Positions 10,201 through 16,200 of a stretch of 64,000 nucleotides of DNA are shown piece after piece. Source of the DNA: Notolepis coatsorum (Eukaryota; Chordata; Actinopteri; Aulopiformes; Paralepididae); NCBI GenBank assembly GCA_963971535.1, contig OZ020592.1:125643937-125707936 (forward strand), read 5' to 3'. The position numbers and the translations under genes are program-made. Numbering within the stretch: position 1 is the stretch's first letter; every line of letters starts with the position of its first letter. Under the pieces are notes generated by a model. That model saw nothing but the letters and a program-made list of their open reading frames with translations, was not told the origin of the DNA and did no database searches.

Positions 10201-13200
10201 CCGATTCCTCCTGAGCAACGTCAGAAGGATCCGCCCCTTCCTTCTTTTTTTTTTTCTTTTTATTTGTCTTTTTCCCCCTCCATTTTCCTCCGATTTTCTC
10301 CCATCCCAATGTTAGTCGTATGCCAATTCCCAGTCCCTTCCTGGTCGCTGCGCTTTACCCCCCACAGTCAGATCATTTGGGAGAGTGGAGGCTACCACGT
10401 GCTTCCTCCGACACACGTCCAGCCAATCACCGCTTCTTTTCACCTGGCAGCGCGGATTCTCATTGAGAGGGCGTAGCGTGTGGGAGGACCACACTATCCC
10501 CCTCATGTCCAATCCGCGCTTAGCAGGCGCCCCGACCGAACTGTAGGAGTCGCTGTTTACAACGACCTGGACCCACCCCGCCAGCTTCTCCCACCCTCTG
10601 ATACAGCCAATTGTATCAGTGCAGACGGCCAGCCAAGCTGGTGACAACCCCGGAGCTGTGAGCTGGATTCGAACAGGCGAACCAAGCTCACAGCTCCGGG
10701 GCTGGTGACGAACGCAATCTCCGCTCGACCACCTAACCGCCCGGATCCGCCCCTTCCTGACAAAAGAAGCCACCCAACTCCTCGTCCAATCAACAGTCAT
10801 CTCCCGCCTCGACTACTGCAACGCACTGCTCGCTGGCCTCCCGGCCACTGCTACTAAGCCTCTTCAACTCATTCAGAACGCAGCGGCCCGCCTGATCTCA
10901 AACCTACCGAAGTCGGCCCATGTCACCCCACTTCTTAGGGACCTGCACTGGCTCCCCATTGCTACACGAATCCGCTTCAAGGCCCTCGACCTAGCATACC
11001 GTGCGGCAAAGGGAACCGCTCCCGCCTACCTCCGGTCAATGGTCTCTAACTACACACCCTCAAGACCCCTACGCTCTGCATCTTCTGGCCGCCTCAGACC
11101 TACTCCTATCCAAGCTCCGGGAGGGTCATCAAAGAGAAGTCGCCTATTCTCAGTCCTTGCCCCACAATGGTGGAATGAACTACACCACCCCAGTTAGGAC
11201 AGCCGAAACACGTCCAATCTTTCGCCGTCGACTAAAGACACACTTCTTCAACCATTATCTGAATTAAAAAGAGAAAAAAAAAATCTAACCCTAACTAACC
11301 GTACTGTCATGCACTTGTCCTAATAAACTAACCTACACTGTAGCACTCAACACTTTGATGAACATTGTTGCTCAGCTGATAGAGTTGTGCCCTTCCTGAT
11401 GGCTTGTCGTACAGAACTTGTAAGTCGCTTTGGATAAAAGCGTCAGCTAAATGACTAAATGTAAATGTAAATGTATCACCTGCTGCAGCTTGGCCTTGTC
11501 CCTGACCGTGGCTGCAGGGAACCAGGTGATGATGGAGATAACCTAGCTGGCTAACTAGCGTGGCTATCATTCTGTGAGCTGGTGTTGGTACCTGGCTGGC
11601 TAACTAGCATGGCTATCGTTCTGTGAGCTGGCGTTTGTACCTAGCTGGTGCTAACTAGCGTGGCTATCGTTCTGTGAGCTGGTGTTGGTACCTAGCTGGT
11701 GCTAACTAGCGTGGCTATCGTTCTGTGAGCTGGCGTTGGTACCTAGCTGGTGCTAACTAGCGTGGCTATCGTTCTGTGAGCTGGCGTTGGTACCTAGCTG
11801 GTGCTAACTAGCGTGGCTATCGTTCTGTGAGCTGGCGTTGGTACCTAGCTGGTGCTAACTAGCGTGGCTATTGTTCTGTGAGCTGGCGTTGGTACCTAGC
11901 TGGTGCTAACTAGCATGGCTATCGTTCTGTGAGCTGGCGTTGGTACCTGGCTGGCTAACTAGCGTGGCTATCGTTCTGTGAGCTGGCGTTGGTACCTGGC
12001 TGGCTAACTAGCGTGGCTATCGTTCTGTGAGCTGGCGTTAGTACCTAGCTGGTGCTAACTAGCGTGGCTATCGTTCTGTGAGCTGGGGTTGGTACCTAGC
12101 TGGTACTAACTAGCGTGGCTATCGTTCTGTGAGCTGGCGTTGCTACATAGCTACCGTTACTGTTTAATCAAAAATGTTAATAAATGGGAGCTTCCTCAAA
12201 CAGCCATCTCTTTCCCGACAATCCCCTCTGTGCACCAACCCTTACATATGGTAATTAAACATTAAAACACCTGCGGTTTATAGTCCAGTGCGGCTTATAT
12301 ATGTACACATCATTCAATTTAGATGCTGCGGCTTATATTCAGGTGCGGCTTATAGTGTGAAAATTACGGTACTTTCCTAACTTAGTGAAACTAAATGTAT
12401 CAAATTAACACATAGATATAAATGTACTGAATTGTTATTTCTTATTTTATTTATTATTATAATATATTTAAAAAAAATCTGATATATATTTTTTTCTGCC
12501 GATACCCGATCCAGCTATTTTAGTGATATCGGCGGTTGATACCGATACCAATATCGGATCGGTGCATCCCTAGTGTAGGTACTGGATCTGCCTGCTGTAG
12601 GTACCGGATCTGCCTGGATCTTGTGCTGTTTTTTTTATCTTATCAAGTTTCCCATCTGGGATAATGAAGCGACTGAACTTTAAAAAAGAGAACATTAAAA
12701 TAACTTTATCTTCAATAATGACTCATTCTGCCTGTTTATGGCTCCATAGAGATGTTGTTAAGTGATGGTGTTTTATGTGATATGTCTGATGTCTTTCAGA
12801 TTGCTTTGGTGATGGGCTCCTGTACAGCAGGGGGCGCTGTAGTGTTGTGTCTGATGTCTTTCAGATTGCTGTGGTGATGGGCTCCTGTACAGCAGGGGGC
12901 GCTGTAGTGATGTGTCTGATGTCTTTCAGATTGCTGTGGTGATGGGCTCCTGTACAGCAGGGGGCGCTGTAGTGATGTGTCTGATGTCTTTCAGATCGCT
13001 TTGGTGATGGGCTCCTGTACAGCAGGGGGCGCTGTAGTGATGTGTCTGATGTCTTTCAGATCGCTGTGGTGATGGGCTCCTGTACAGCAGGGGGCGCTGT
13101 AGTGATGTGTCTGATGTCTTTCAGATTGCTGTGGTGATGGGCTCCTGTACAGCAGGGGGCGCTGTAGTGATGTGTCTGATGTCTTTCAGATTGCTGTGGT

Positions 13201-16200
13201 GATGGGCTCCTGTACAGCAGGGGGCGCTGTAGTGATGTGTCTGATGTCTTTCAGATTGCTGTGGTGATGGGCTCCTGTACAGCAGGGGGCGCTGTAGTGA
13301 TGTGTCTGATGTCTTTCAGATTGCTGTGGTGATGGGCTCCTGTACAGCAGGGGGCGCTGTAGTGATGTGTCTGATGTCTTTCAGATTGCTGTGGTGATGG
13401 GCTCCTGTACAGCAGGGGGCGCTGTAGTGATGTGTCTGATGTCTTTCAGATTGCTGTGGTGATGGGCTCCTGTACAGCAGGGGGCGCTGTAGTGACGTGT
13501 CTGATGTCTTTCAGATCGCTGTGGTGATGGGCTCCTGTACAGCAGGGGGCGCTGTAGTGATGTTTCTGGTGTCTTTCAGATCGCTGTGGTGATGGGCTCC
13601 TGTACAGCAGGGGGCGCTGTAGTGATGTGTCTGATGTCTTTCAGATTGCTGTGGTGATGGGCTCCTGTACAGCAGGGGGCGCCTATGTTCCAGCCATGGC
13701 TGACGAGAGCATCATCGTCGGAAAGCAAGGAACCATCTTCCTCGGAGGACCTCCTCTGGTGGGTTTAATAATCTGACATCAACACAATATTTATATGGAG
13801 ATTGTAAGTGGTAGGGCTGTCTTATATACTTCGAAGCTTCAAAGCTTCGTTCGATGGGCATGGGATTAAAATATGAAAAGAAAAATCGATTATAAAAAAA
13901 AAATAAAAAAAAATATGATTTATTTTTTATTTTTTGCAAAATCAACTCTGCCTCTCTTTGTTAACTACAACAAGCAATGCTGTTTGCTATTTAAGATGAG
14001 GTCGGACTCGGCACTGACAGATTTGTGTTCATTGTGCTGCTTTTATAAAGCCTCAAATGACGGCTTACAATATTTCATTGATTTTATAGTTTATTTGGTA
14101 GGGACAACACATGTCAATGAACATCAAGTACAAAATACAAAATGTAGACATGCAGGGTTGTAGCAAGAGCTAATTTACACCCGTAGTCCCTAAACAGGAG
14201 ACATAAAACTTTCAATAAATAAATAGCCTGCTTAAAGGAAAACTCCAACATTTTGGGAAATTAGCTTATTTAACATATTCCCTGGAGTTAGACAAGAAGA
14301 TACATACTTTTTTTGTCTCTGTGCGTGCATTTAGCTTTGGGAACAGTCGCTCCGTTAGCGTAGCTTAGCTTCATCACTGGAAGTGGGGGGGGGGGGAAAT
14401 AGCCTGACGTTCCCTTACAGTGTATACAGTAGGGCTGTCCCCGACTAAGGATTTGGATGGTCGACTAGGATTGGCCAAAATTTGCCGTTAGTCGACTATT
14501 GGTCGACTTAAAAAAATTATTTTCTTCTTTTTTTTTTAACTTTTTTATCATTCCATTTGCGCTGTGGGGGGTGCTTAATGTCTGAAGGAGTCGACTGAAG
14601 GCTTCTTGTGCTCTCCAAATCATGCAATTGAAATCCTCTTTCAGTGCCTCTGTGCCTGTTTTGCCTCTGGTATGCGTGCCATTAGCGTTAGCCACGCTTC
14701 TAGGCCTCTTTTCTTTTGGAAAGAATGATAAAAAAATATATATATATTAATTTATTATTTTTTTTTTATTATATTCGACTAAGAGGTTGGCCAGTCGACT
14801 ACGGCTCCTTTTGACCGATTAGTCGACTAATCGATTAATAGGGGTCAGCCCTAGTATACAGTCACCAAATACATTCCAAATACAACTCAAACGTTCATGT
14901 AAACATGTTGTGACCTGTGTATTTACCACGTGGAGAAATTAAAAATAATTGAATTAGACAATTCCGTTTTCTAAGCAAATATACTCAAATTTTTTTTTTG
15001 CCTAAGCACTCGTCTCTGCGCGCAGCCAGTGATTTCTACGTGAAGCCGTGTTTGTGGACATTCTCGTTAATTCAAAGGATCCAAACCGATTGAAGTTTAT
15101 GGATACCATGACTTAAAATCCTCTTACCTTGACGATTAAAAGCCTCCCCAATTTAGAAAACAGTAATCCAATGGCTGGTATTGATAATATAATACTAACT
15201 ACTGCACGTAGCTAACCGGAGCTAACGCAGAACCGGATGGTCAGTAAAGCAAATATAATGACTTCCTTTCTGGGGTTTTCAAAATAAAAGTGCGATGTTT
15301 ATAGCAGCGGAAAATGTTTGTTTTGTACATTATCTAACGTTAACACGAATCTAAACTAACGTTACAACTAACCTAAAGTTAGTTTAGGTTCGTGTTAACG
15401 CTTTCCCAAAATGTTGGAGTTTTCCTTTAAGGTAAAAGCATTGTGACAATCAATGATAAAAACAACAATAAAAACAAGAAACAAGTTACATAACTAAATT
15501 AGATTAAAAATTATCACAGTTCTGGTTTGCCTTGAGATGCAGTTTAAGATGGGTCTTGAACATGGAGTATGTGGGGCACTCTAATCGCAACTGGTAGGCT
15601 ATTCCAGTAGTTACCACCTTTAACAGAGAACACAGTTTTTGCAAAGGTAGTATACCGAAAAGGCACCTTACAGTCTCCTCTACTGATGGTCCTGGTGGTA
15701 TTGCCAGTGTCTCCTTTTTGTTGGATGAACTCATTCAATGGGGGAGGGGCAAGTCCATGCAGAACCTTGTACATGAAGCAAGTATATTTAAAAACTTGGA
15801 AATTCTCTAAACTTAGCATGTTATGTTTTTCTAAGATATTACAGTGGTGAAATGAATTTGGTTTCCTATCAAATACTTGCATGGCTTTTTTGTAGAGTAA
15901 TTCTATTGGTGTAAGAGTAGTGACATATGAAAGAGACCAGTTGATAAAACAGTACTCGATGTGTGATAAAATCATTGAATGCAGAAACATCCTTGCAGCA
16001 TTAACTGGTAGGCAGGGCCTGATCTGCCTGAAGTTTTCGATGTTAAACTTGACTGTTTGTTACTTTCTTCACGTGACTTTTGAAGGTCAATGTAGAGTCC
16101 AATGTGACCCCAAGATACTTGAACTCATTTACAATGTCCAGCTCCGCCTCTCCCAGAAACACATTAGAGTGAGTGACCTCTACTGGTGACTTTGTGAACA

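Follow-up and report, generated by a model that had tools for sequence, protein, structure and literature searches.

The MCCC2 gene and its tandem arrays

The stretch of Notolepis coatsorum DNA analysed here (64,000 nt; hereinafter, the window) covers a large part of a gene that the initial annotation had named MCCC2. This assignment is correct, as the 75-residue translation from the window matches PDB chain 8j4z_J ("Methylcrotonoyl-CoA carboxylase beta chain, mitochondrial") with E = 9.6e-38. The gene is intact, its 17 exons yielding a 564-residue protein. A 392-residue part of it shows 95% identity with MCCC2 of Caranx and Echeneis and aligns free of indels in 110 of 120 homologues among the matches listed, hence no coding piece has been lost or gained. 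The reading frame is that of the normal protein, with no new intron evident. The exons and arrays considered below, all on the forward (+) strand, are as follows.

1109..1221, +, MCCC2 exon 6, the upstream partner of exon 7
12777..13682, +, array over the exon 7 acceptor, 65 bp x 13.9 (TRF, 98% matches)
13645..13758, +, MCCC2 exon 7 (of 17), 114 nt
23669..23809, +, 35-bp x 4 array abutting exon 9, ends 8 bp before it
37532..37943, +, 41-bp x 10.1 array abutting exon 12, starts at intron position +2 of its donor; the exon is not copied
41491..41911, +, 35-bp x 11.8 array over the exon 15 acceptor: 11 decoys (41497-41847) and the real site at 41889
41889..42003, +, MCCC2 exon 15, with an array on either side
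42002..42729, +, 39-bp x 18.8 array over the exon 15 donor: the real site at 42003 and 18 decoys (AG/gtaacactc) up to 42701
44477..44813, +, a group of seven more copies of the region around the exon 17 acceptor, within the same intron but 18.4 kb further upstream
63017..63191, +, array over the exon 17 acceptor: decoys at 63037, 63068 and 63119 and the real site at 63170
63170..63287, +, MCCC2 exon 17 (last), stop codon included

By the exon coordinates, exon 7 lies between introns of 12.4 and 9.2 kb, and exon 15 between introns of 630 and 975 nt that consist mostly of array sequence.

The exon 7 acceptor array

The exon 7 array is far above chance expectation. As proposed initially, 13 repeats precede the real exon: the decoy acceptors stand at 12800, 12865 and so on to 13580, and the real one at 13645, in an exact 65-bp register. 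Each of the 14 copies comprises 27 intron bases, including the acceptor, and 38 exon bases. The initial annotation gave the exonic segment as 39 bases, an exact 13-codon piece of the oxyanion-hole loop; the count of 13 codons holds, whereas only 38 bases of the unit consensus are identical to the exon, base 39 being that of GCT in the decoys and of GCC in the exon (Ala either way). Decoys 1 and 4 encode IALVMG, and the other 11, IAVVMG.

The AG is retained in all 13 decoys. However, since the array diverges by only 1.2% per site, 13 intact AGs of 13 are expected by chance (P = 0.73), and this retention shows no selection. Reading through from a decoy leads, as initially stated, to a stop; it comes after 25 codons in 13 of 13 cases.

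The real copy shares one sequence with unit 3 and units 6-11, the variants being confined to units 1, 2, 4, 5, 12 and 13. Thus, the array ends are more diverged than the core, yet the real copy, which comes last, does not depart from the consensus. This pattern resembles ordinary minisatellite turnover. The ordering of the variants also bears on assembly, as tandem arrays are often misassembled and the exon 7 array, known from one haplotype, could have been inflated or misplaced. We regard such an artefact as very unlikely, given that the unit variants are ordered, that a single long read can cover the 906-bp span, that a 6.3-kb array (TRF) is also resolved in the window, that MCCC2 has seven such arrays, and that short-read assembly tends to shrink arrays rather than expand them.

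Arrays at other MCCC2 splice sites

In the whole 17-exon gene, 7 of the 32 internal splice sites sit within tandem arrays, so that the repeat unit spans an exon-intron boundary at exon 7 and at six more sites. Three of the latter are in the window (the acceptor and the donor of exon 15 and the acceptor of exon 17) and escaped the initial annotation; three are upstream of the window, outside its view. Exons 4 and 15 have arrays on both sides, exon 15 having 12 acceptors at its start and 19 donors at its end, real sites included. The GT is present in all 18 decoys of the exon 15 donor, a count made with a search pattern that demanded GT and hence restricted to such copies.

At all seven spanned sites the protein-giving copy is the one adjoining the exon core, a geometry that the MCCC2 protein requires. 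Use of other copies would have different outcomes. Ten of the 11 exon 15 acceptor decoys lead to a stop after 18 codons, and the one nearest to the real site is in frame and would add 14 residues; the exon 17 decoys at 63068 and 63119 keep an open frame and would add 34 and 17 residues, respectively. The copies at 44477..44813 are perhaps the other half of the exon 17 array; a check for target sites of an insertion between the halves yielded just a 6-bp direct repeat, GCTGTA. A search with Rfam at the gathering threshold gave no matches in the window, and in a scan for a neighbouring gene the 40 longest open reading frames in the window and 100 kb upstream of it looked by eye like repeats and mobile elements.

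Placement of arrays relative to splice sites

The window is rich in arrays: 27.8% of 4000 random positions have another copy of at least 80% identity inside it. The fraction of spanned MCCC2 splice sites (22%, 7/32) is close to the array share of the MCCC2 intron sequence (21.8%), as expected if arrays are neutral towards splice sites; arrays cover 6.1% of the exon bases. Enrichment of arrays at splice sites was rejected, as sites inside arrays do not exceed intron coverage.

Array edges behave differently. An edge lies within 25 bp of a splice site at 10 of the 32 MCCC2 junctions, compared to 1.37 expected by rotation (P = 0.0004). When the arrays in the window were jittered by 500-1000 bp, the excess had P = 0.007-0.010 at 25 bp and 0.026-0.031 at 50 bp, and it was significant against random placement too. 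This pile-up counts against neutral growth of the arrays; we attribute it mainly to exons truncating arrays, which explains most of it, perhaps not all.

Arrays in other genes

Of 52 exon matches sampled from other genes in the 3.42-Gb assembly, 6 had an array that spanned a splice site. These are an array over a donor in PCCB, an array over an acceptor in an MCC-beta-like paralogue, a donor array with 53 copies in a further acyl-CoA dehydrogenase, and one donor array shared by three ACADS-like paralogues, in which its copies number about 19, 35 and 87. None of the 13 matches of the aldehyde-dehydrogenase family had a spanning array. Thus, splice-site arrays are a feature of the genome and not of one exon.

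In the MCC-like paralogue, a junction that looks homologous to that of MCCC2 carries an array with a 34-bp unit, compared to 65 bp in MCCC2. Along with the pile-up of edges, this would be accounted for if minisatellites in this genome arose preferentially at splice junctions, for example by transcription-linked duplication targeted to junctions. We consider such targeting improbable, since the sites inside arrays are not above the prediction from intron coverage and the 13 aldehyde-dehydrogenase-family matches are free of spanning arrays.

Strength of the decoys and their possible use

Splice sites were scored with a simple weight matrix from a frequency table, not MaxEnt, so only the relative values are meaningful. 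The decoys mostly score level with or above the true sites. For exon 7, the real acceptor (5.8) is not stronger than its 13 decoys (5.3 to 8.0), which bears out the initial remark that the last of 14 near-identical acceptors has to be picked. The same is observed for the exon 17 acceptors (decoys 6.4-7.3, real 6.4) and the exon 15 donors (decoys 6.5, real 5.8), the exception being the exon 15 acceptor, where the real site scores 8.5 and the decoys 0.7-4.3.

Another initial suggestion was that each 39-base segment could be included as an in-frame microexon of 13 residues, as its length is divisible by three and it is followed by a GT. This did not withstand scoring: the decoy donor, GCT/gtagtg, has a score of -1.7, compared to 3.6 to 12.5 for the window's 11 real donors, so that no usable donor is predicted behind the exon 7 segments. 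Moreover, the insert would enter a conserved loop: of the 197 MCCC2-type proteins retrieved, 160 have exactly MGSCTAGGA, and 0 have a second SCTAGG. No decoy-derived insert was seen in this protein set, in which no member is shown to come from Notolepis coatsorum. We thus find the microexon reading extremely unlikely. A protein search for products of the in-frame decoys at exons 15 and 17 likewise showed no decoy-derived insert among the 120 matches listed of 8000 scored, a weak negative in view of this short listing and of a database clustered at 90%.

The decoys could alternatively act as poison acceptors. If used at a low rate, they would produce premature stops and decay, and the copy number would tune the amount of functional MCCC2 or, in the other genes, the functional use of donors. 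The stops behind all 13 exon 7 decoys and 10 of the 11 exon 15 acceptor decoys, the strength of most decoys matching that of the real site, and the unequal copy numbers in paralogues are consistent with this. In addition, the nearest exon 7 decoys would yield exons of 179-309 nt, a usual size for exons. On the other hand, selection is not evident, as the AG retention fits the low divergence and the number of spanned sites fits array coverage; lancelet arrays of this kind are reported to give no aberrant mRNA (PMC3087553, PMC3902484). We therefore hold such a rheostat to be unlikely. The related expectation, that the decoy share of splicing rises with the number of repeats, mostly leading to decay and at the exon 17 decoys 63068 and 63119 to the longer proteins, seems equally doubtful.

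Discussion

Competition between acceptors is familiar from NAGNAG and other tandem acceptors; in MCCC2, in contrast, the spacing is 35-65 bp, the copy number is 4-14, and the sites would have been multiplied by minisatellite growth. Introns have reportedly been born from tandem arrays, with splice sites multiplied by the repeats (Zhuo et al. 2007), whereas a new intron is not evident in MCCC2.

The exon 7 array is probably a "mirage" minisatellite, a kind known from lancelets, found here in a fish, at many sites of one gene and in other genes too. According to PMC3087553 and PMC3902484, the lancelet loci (Adh3, the globins BflGb6 and BflGb9, troponin C and PGBD5) likewise have tandem copies of intron/exon boundaries, many with AG or GT, at both acceptors and donors; the true copy belongs to the exon, and homogenisation is weaker at the array ends than in the core. 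Splicing is reported to be undisturbed. There, the two haplotypes of BflGb6 have 6 and 3 copies, with units of 150-160 bp, and the Adh3 units are 10-72 bp. The fish differs from what is described there in having seven sites in one gene, exons 4 and 15 flanked on both sides, and in another gene as many as about 87 copies. Variable internal tandem repeats of human segmental duplications (De Grassi and Ciccarelli 2009, PMC2812944) are also minisatellites that lie at exon-intron boundaries and change gene structure, but they give rise to novel introns or longer exons in recent paralogues, whereas the MCCC2 frame is normal.

The arrays probably arose by neutral minisatellite growth from a duplication straddling the junction and are tolerated owing to exon definition. 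A small tandem duplication over the exon 7 junction (27 intron and 38 exon bases) would have been amplified to 14 copies by unequal exchange or slippage. As the exon core would remain joined to the last copy, the right protein would come from that acceptor alone, and the 13 upstream acceptors would leave with the intron. In genes with long introns, sites would be paired across the exon, and the acceptor closest to the downstream donor would win. In this genome, which is rich in repeats, the same neutral process may operate at any place where an array arises; at donors, the first copy would be the real one. That the arrays are tolerated follows from the intact 564-residue reading frame of MCCC2; faithful splicing, the role of exon definition and the mode of expansion are what we infer.

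PMC9225289 states that with large flanking introns the sites nearest across the exon are favoured, and finding the true copy beside the exon core is as predicted from this. Exon 15, with introns of 630 and 975 nt, shows that not every such exon has large introns. Further, two acceptors of a pre-mRNA can be bound simultaneously, which inhibits splicing (PMC5389562); hence arrays would be predicted to be costly.

The cell has to select one true splice site in a row of near-identical copies, and this in everyday metabolic genes. Experiments on the spliceosome's choice among identical, competing sites have mostly used artificial constructs. In conserved enzymes of Notolepis coatsorum, the genome provides a natural series that runs from 2 to about 87 near-identical donors and from 4 to 14 acceptors, with arrays on both sides of some exons and with one donor array that differs in length between three paralogues. 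RNA-seq of this animal would measure the bias of exon definition towards the exon-proximal copy, and the same series bears on the decay of accuracy with the number of decoys and on the fitness cost of arrays. The arrays are a trap for gene prediction, and they show a route to new introns or alternative exon ends in vertebrates. Were the rheostat true, the output of MCCC2, PCCB and the acyl-CoA dehydrogenases would vary between individuals and paralogues with the length of the array.

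Tandem arrays at the splice sites of MCCC2

The window covers C24:125643937-125707936 of an assembly of 3.42 Gb in 4787 contigs. In it, tblastn and reading of the splice sites located 12 MCCC2 exons, which, joined in frame, encode the 392-residue C-terminal part of the protein. With 100 kb of upstream sequence added, the complete gene has 17 exons, spans about 125 kb and encodes an intact protein of 564 residues. The exon 9 donor (window position 23916) is GC (GAG/gcaagt), giving a GC-AG intron.

Seven of the 32 internal splice sites sit inside tandem arrays, so that each real site, the one yielding the intact protein, is accompanied by decoy copies.

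Splice-site arrays of MCCC2 (unit length x copy number)
Exon 4 acceptor: 47 bp x 5.1, upstream of the window
Exon 4 donor: 21 bp x 9, upstream of the window
Exon 5 donor: 26 bp x 2.1, upstream of the window
Exon 7 acceptor: 65 bp x 13.9
Exon 15 acceptor: 35 bp x 11.8
Exon 15 donor: 39 bp x 18.8
Exon 17 acceptor: 51 bp x 2.8, with 7 further copies lying 18.4 kb upstream within one intron

The exon 7 array, described in the initial annotation, was recovered by TRF at window positions 12777-13682 (98% matches), with 13 decoy acceptors, from 12800 to 13580, ahead of the real one at 13645. Its unit consists of 27 bases of intron followed by the exon's first 38 bases. When window positions 12784-13758 were searched against the assembly, the only match was the query itself, in a search that leaves out simple repeats and very frequent words.

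At all seven sites the true copy is the one touching the exon core; as the protein requires this position, it is by itself no evidence of selection. Four further junctions (exon 1 donor, exon 9 acceptor, exon 11 acceptor, exon 12 donor) lie at most 25 bp from an array edge and are uncopied.

The two pieces of the exon 17 array (window 44477-44813 and 63017-63191) are about 18 kb apart in one intron, and the gap between them is flanked by a 6-bp direct repeat, GCTGTA. In intron 6, arrays of one unit of about 50 bp occur at 2016-2544 and 11541-12152, 9 kb apart, with retrotransposon-like ORFs between them; perhaps one array was split by an insertion, or an element carries the array. The intron between exons 9 and 10 holds a 6.3-kb array of a 29-bp unit (26066-32524; about 138 and 65 copies in two TRF rows).

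Strength of the decoys and consequences of their use

Splice sites were scored with a simple weight matrix, whose values are meaningful only relative to one another. Scores are 5.3-8.0 for the 13 decoys of exon 7 (real acceptor, 5.8), 6.4-7.3 for the exon 17 acceptor copies (real, 6.4), 6.5 for the exon 15 donor decoys (real, 5.8), and 9.6 and 7.8 for two exon 4 acceptor decoys (real, 9.2); at the exon 4 donor, five of the six scored decoys equal the real site and one is weaker. At the exon 15 acceptor the decoys fall short of the real site (0.7-4.3 vs 8.5). In most arrays, then, the true site cannot be told from its copies by local sequence. As the window has 213 AG sites that equal or exceed the exon 7 acceptor in score, strong-looking decoys are frequent in these introns anyway; the unusual point of the array decoys is that the exon's own start is copied along with the site.

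As predicted from the sequence earlier, read-through from every one of the 13 exon 7 decoys reaches a stop, after 25 codons. The suggested use of the copies as 39-nt microexons fared worse, since the required donor, GCT/gtagtg, scores -1.7, vs 3.6-12.5 for the 11 real donors of the window. Ten of the 11 exon 15 acceptor decoys lead to a stop after 18 codons, the nearest one being open and adding 14 residues if used. At exon 17, the decoys at 63068 and 63119 are open and would add 34 and 17 residues, respectively; the one at 63037 leads to a stop after 14 codons, and the seven remote copies after at most 8.

From two protein searches, each limited to the best 120 of 8000 scored hits, 197 distinct MCCC2-type proteins were collected; not one has a second SCTAGG, WDDG or SPRF motif, and hence not one shows a decoy insert. 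This is weak negative evidence, because the database was clustered at 90% and the protein of Notolepis coatsorum itself was not recognised in it. The exon 6/7 junction is covered by 189 proteins, 16 of which have an insertion within 3 residues, in no case repeating the SCTAGG of exon 7. Nine of these insertions, all in fish models (P0121, P0122, P0128, P0129, P0135, P0146, P0150, P0157, P0179), begin with V or QV and are 12-33 residues long; judging from their sequence, they look like read-through of a retained short intron and are probably gene-model effects. Insertions at the exon 15 junction were seen in none of the 197 proteins, and at the exon 17 junction in two, both from Silurus, with 6 residues unlike the decoys.

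Placement of the arrays

The share of MCCC2 splice sites inside arrays (22%) is close to the array coverage of the introns (21.8%; exons, 6.1%); hence, by this measure splice sites attract no arrays. In a 40-base copy test in the window, 3 of the 12 acceptors and none of the 11 donors, vs 27.8% of 4000 random positions, were copied elsewhere.

Array edges, in turn, fall within 25 bp of 10 of the 32 junctions vs 1.37 expected under rotation (P = 0.0004). When the arrays of the window were jittered by 500-1000 bp, P was 0.007-0.010 at a distance of 25 bp and 0.026-0.031 at 50 bp; wider shifts gave 0 of 1000. An array extending into an exon has to stop there, which yields pile-ups of this kind, and therefore we do not claim targeting of junctions.

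Arrays in other genes

Three family searches of the assembly, scoring the best candidates only (12 of 151 for PF00171), yielded 55 exon matches (27 PF01039, 15 PF00441, 13 PF00171). Three are MCCC2 itself, leaving 52, a small sample from three families, in which some matches contain stops. Arrays cover 13.0% of the flanks of these 52. A minisatellite (period of at least 15) overlaps the match by at least 5 nt in eight of them, and by sequence reading six matches, representing four different arrays, have a spanned splice site; exon ends here are match ends read by eye, so that arrays reaching few exon bases may escape. Gene names other than MCCC2 are our assumption from the translations.

Splice-site-spanning arrays outside MCCC2
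L025: donor, presumably of PCCB, 44 bp x 14.9
L013: C6:79907620-79907811, minus strand, acceptor of a presumed MCC-beta-like paralogue, 34 bp x 7
L044-L046: one donor array common to three presumed ACADS-like paralogues, 48 bp
L052: donor of presumably another acyl-CoA dehydrogenase, 53 copies of 26 bp

The L013 array, whose unit length is unlike that of the MCCC2 one, lies at an apparently homologous junction ([16 protein letters not shown]); a longer, diverged copy is found about 130 bp further upstream. Two candidates were rejected: the array of L038 begins just inside the intron, and that of L056 (C7:120181418-120181858, minus strand) repeats an aldehyde-dehydrogenase-family coding end with its stop, about 2.8 times in units of 102 bp. 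None of the 13 matches of that family has a splice-site-spanning array.

The three ACADS-like copies (L044-L046, L054, L055; contig C27, 0.58-0.80 Mb) have about 35, 19 and 86-87 repeats of 48 bp. As they have one array in common with unequal repeat counts, the array is older than the gene copies or spread with them, and its length has changed since. These counts are evidence of instability and against a single assembly error.

Known systems and a possible mechanism

Minisatellites at splice junctions are reported from lancelets, as mirage minisatellites, and from a human survey of segmental duplications (PMC2812944). Among the top-ranked papers of a literature collection with few subscription journals, no fish report was recognised. 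Cod and haddock have dense short tandem repeats (PMC5894186), but their units (1-10 bp) differ in size from the arrays described here. The kind of array is already known; what is new is the density, the copy numbers and the fish setting.

In a test system, splicing is inhibited when two acceptors are bound at once (PMC5389562), so decoy acceptors may possibly carry a cost. On the other side, lancelet mirage minisatellites are described as not disturbing splicing (PMC3087553, PMC3902484), and with large flanking introns the splice sites nearest across the exon are said to be preferred (PMC9225289). Exon 7, which lies between introns of 12.4 and 9.2 kb and whose true copy is exon-proximal, fits both statements; the introns flanking exon 15 are shorter (630 and 975 nt). 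Given the fit of exon 7, we favour the reading, drawn from sequence, that a minisatellite would grow neutrally over a splice junction and be tolerated, as exon definition, by pairing sites across the exon, would pick the exon-proximal copy.
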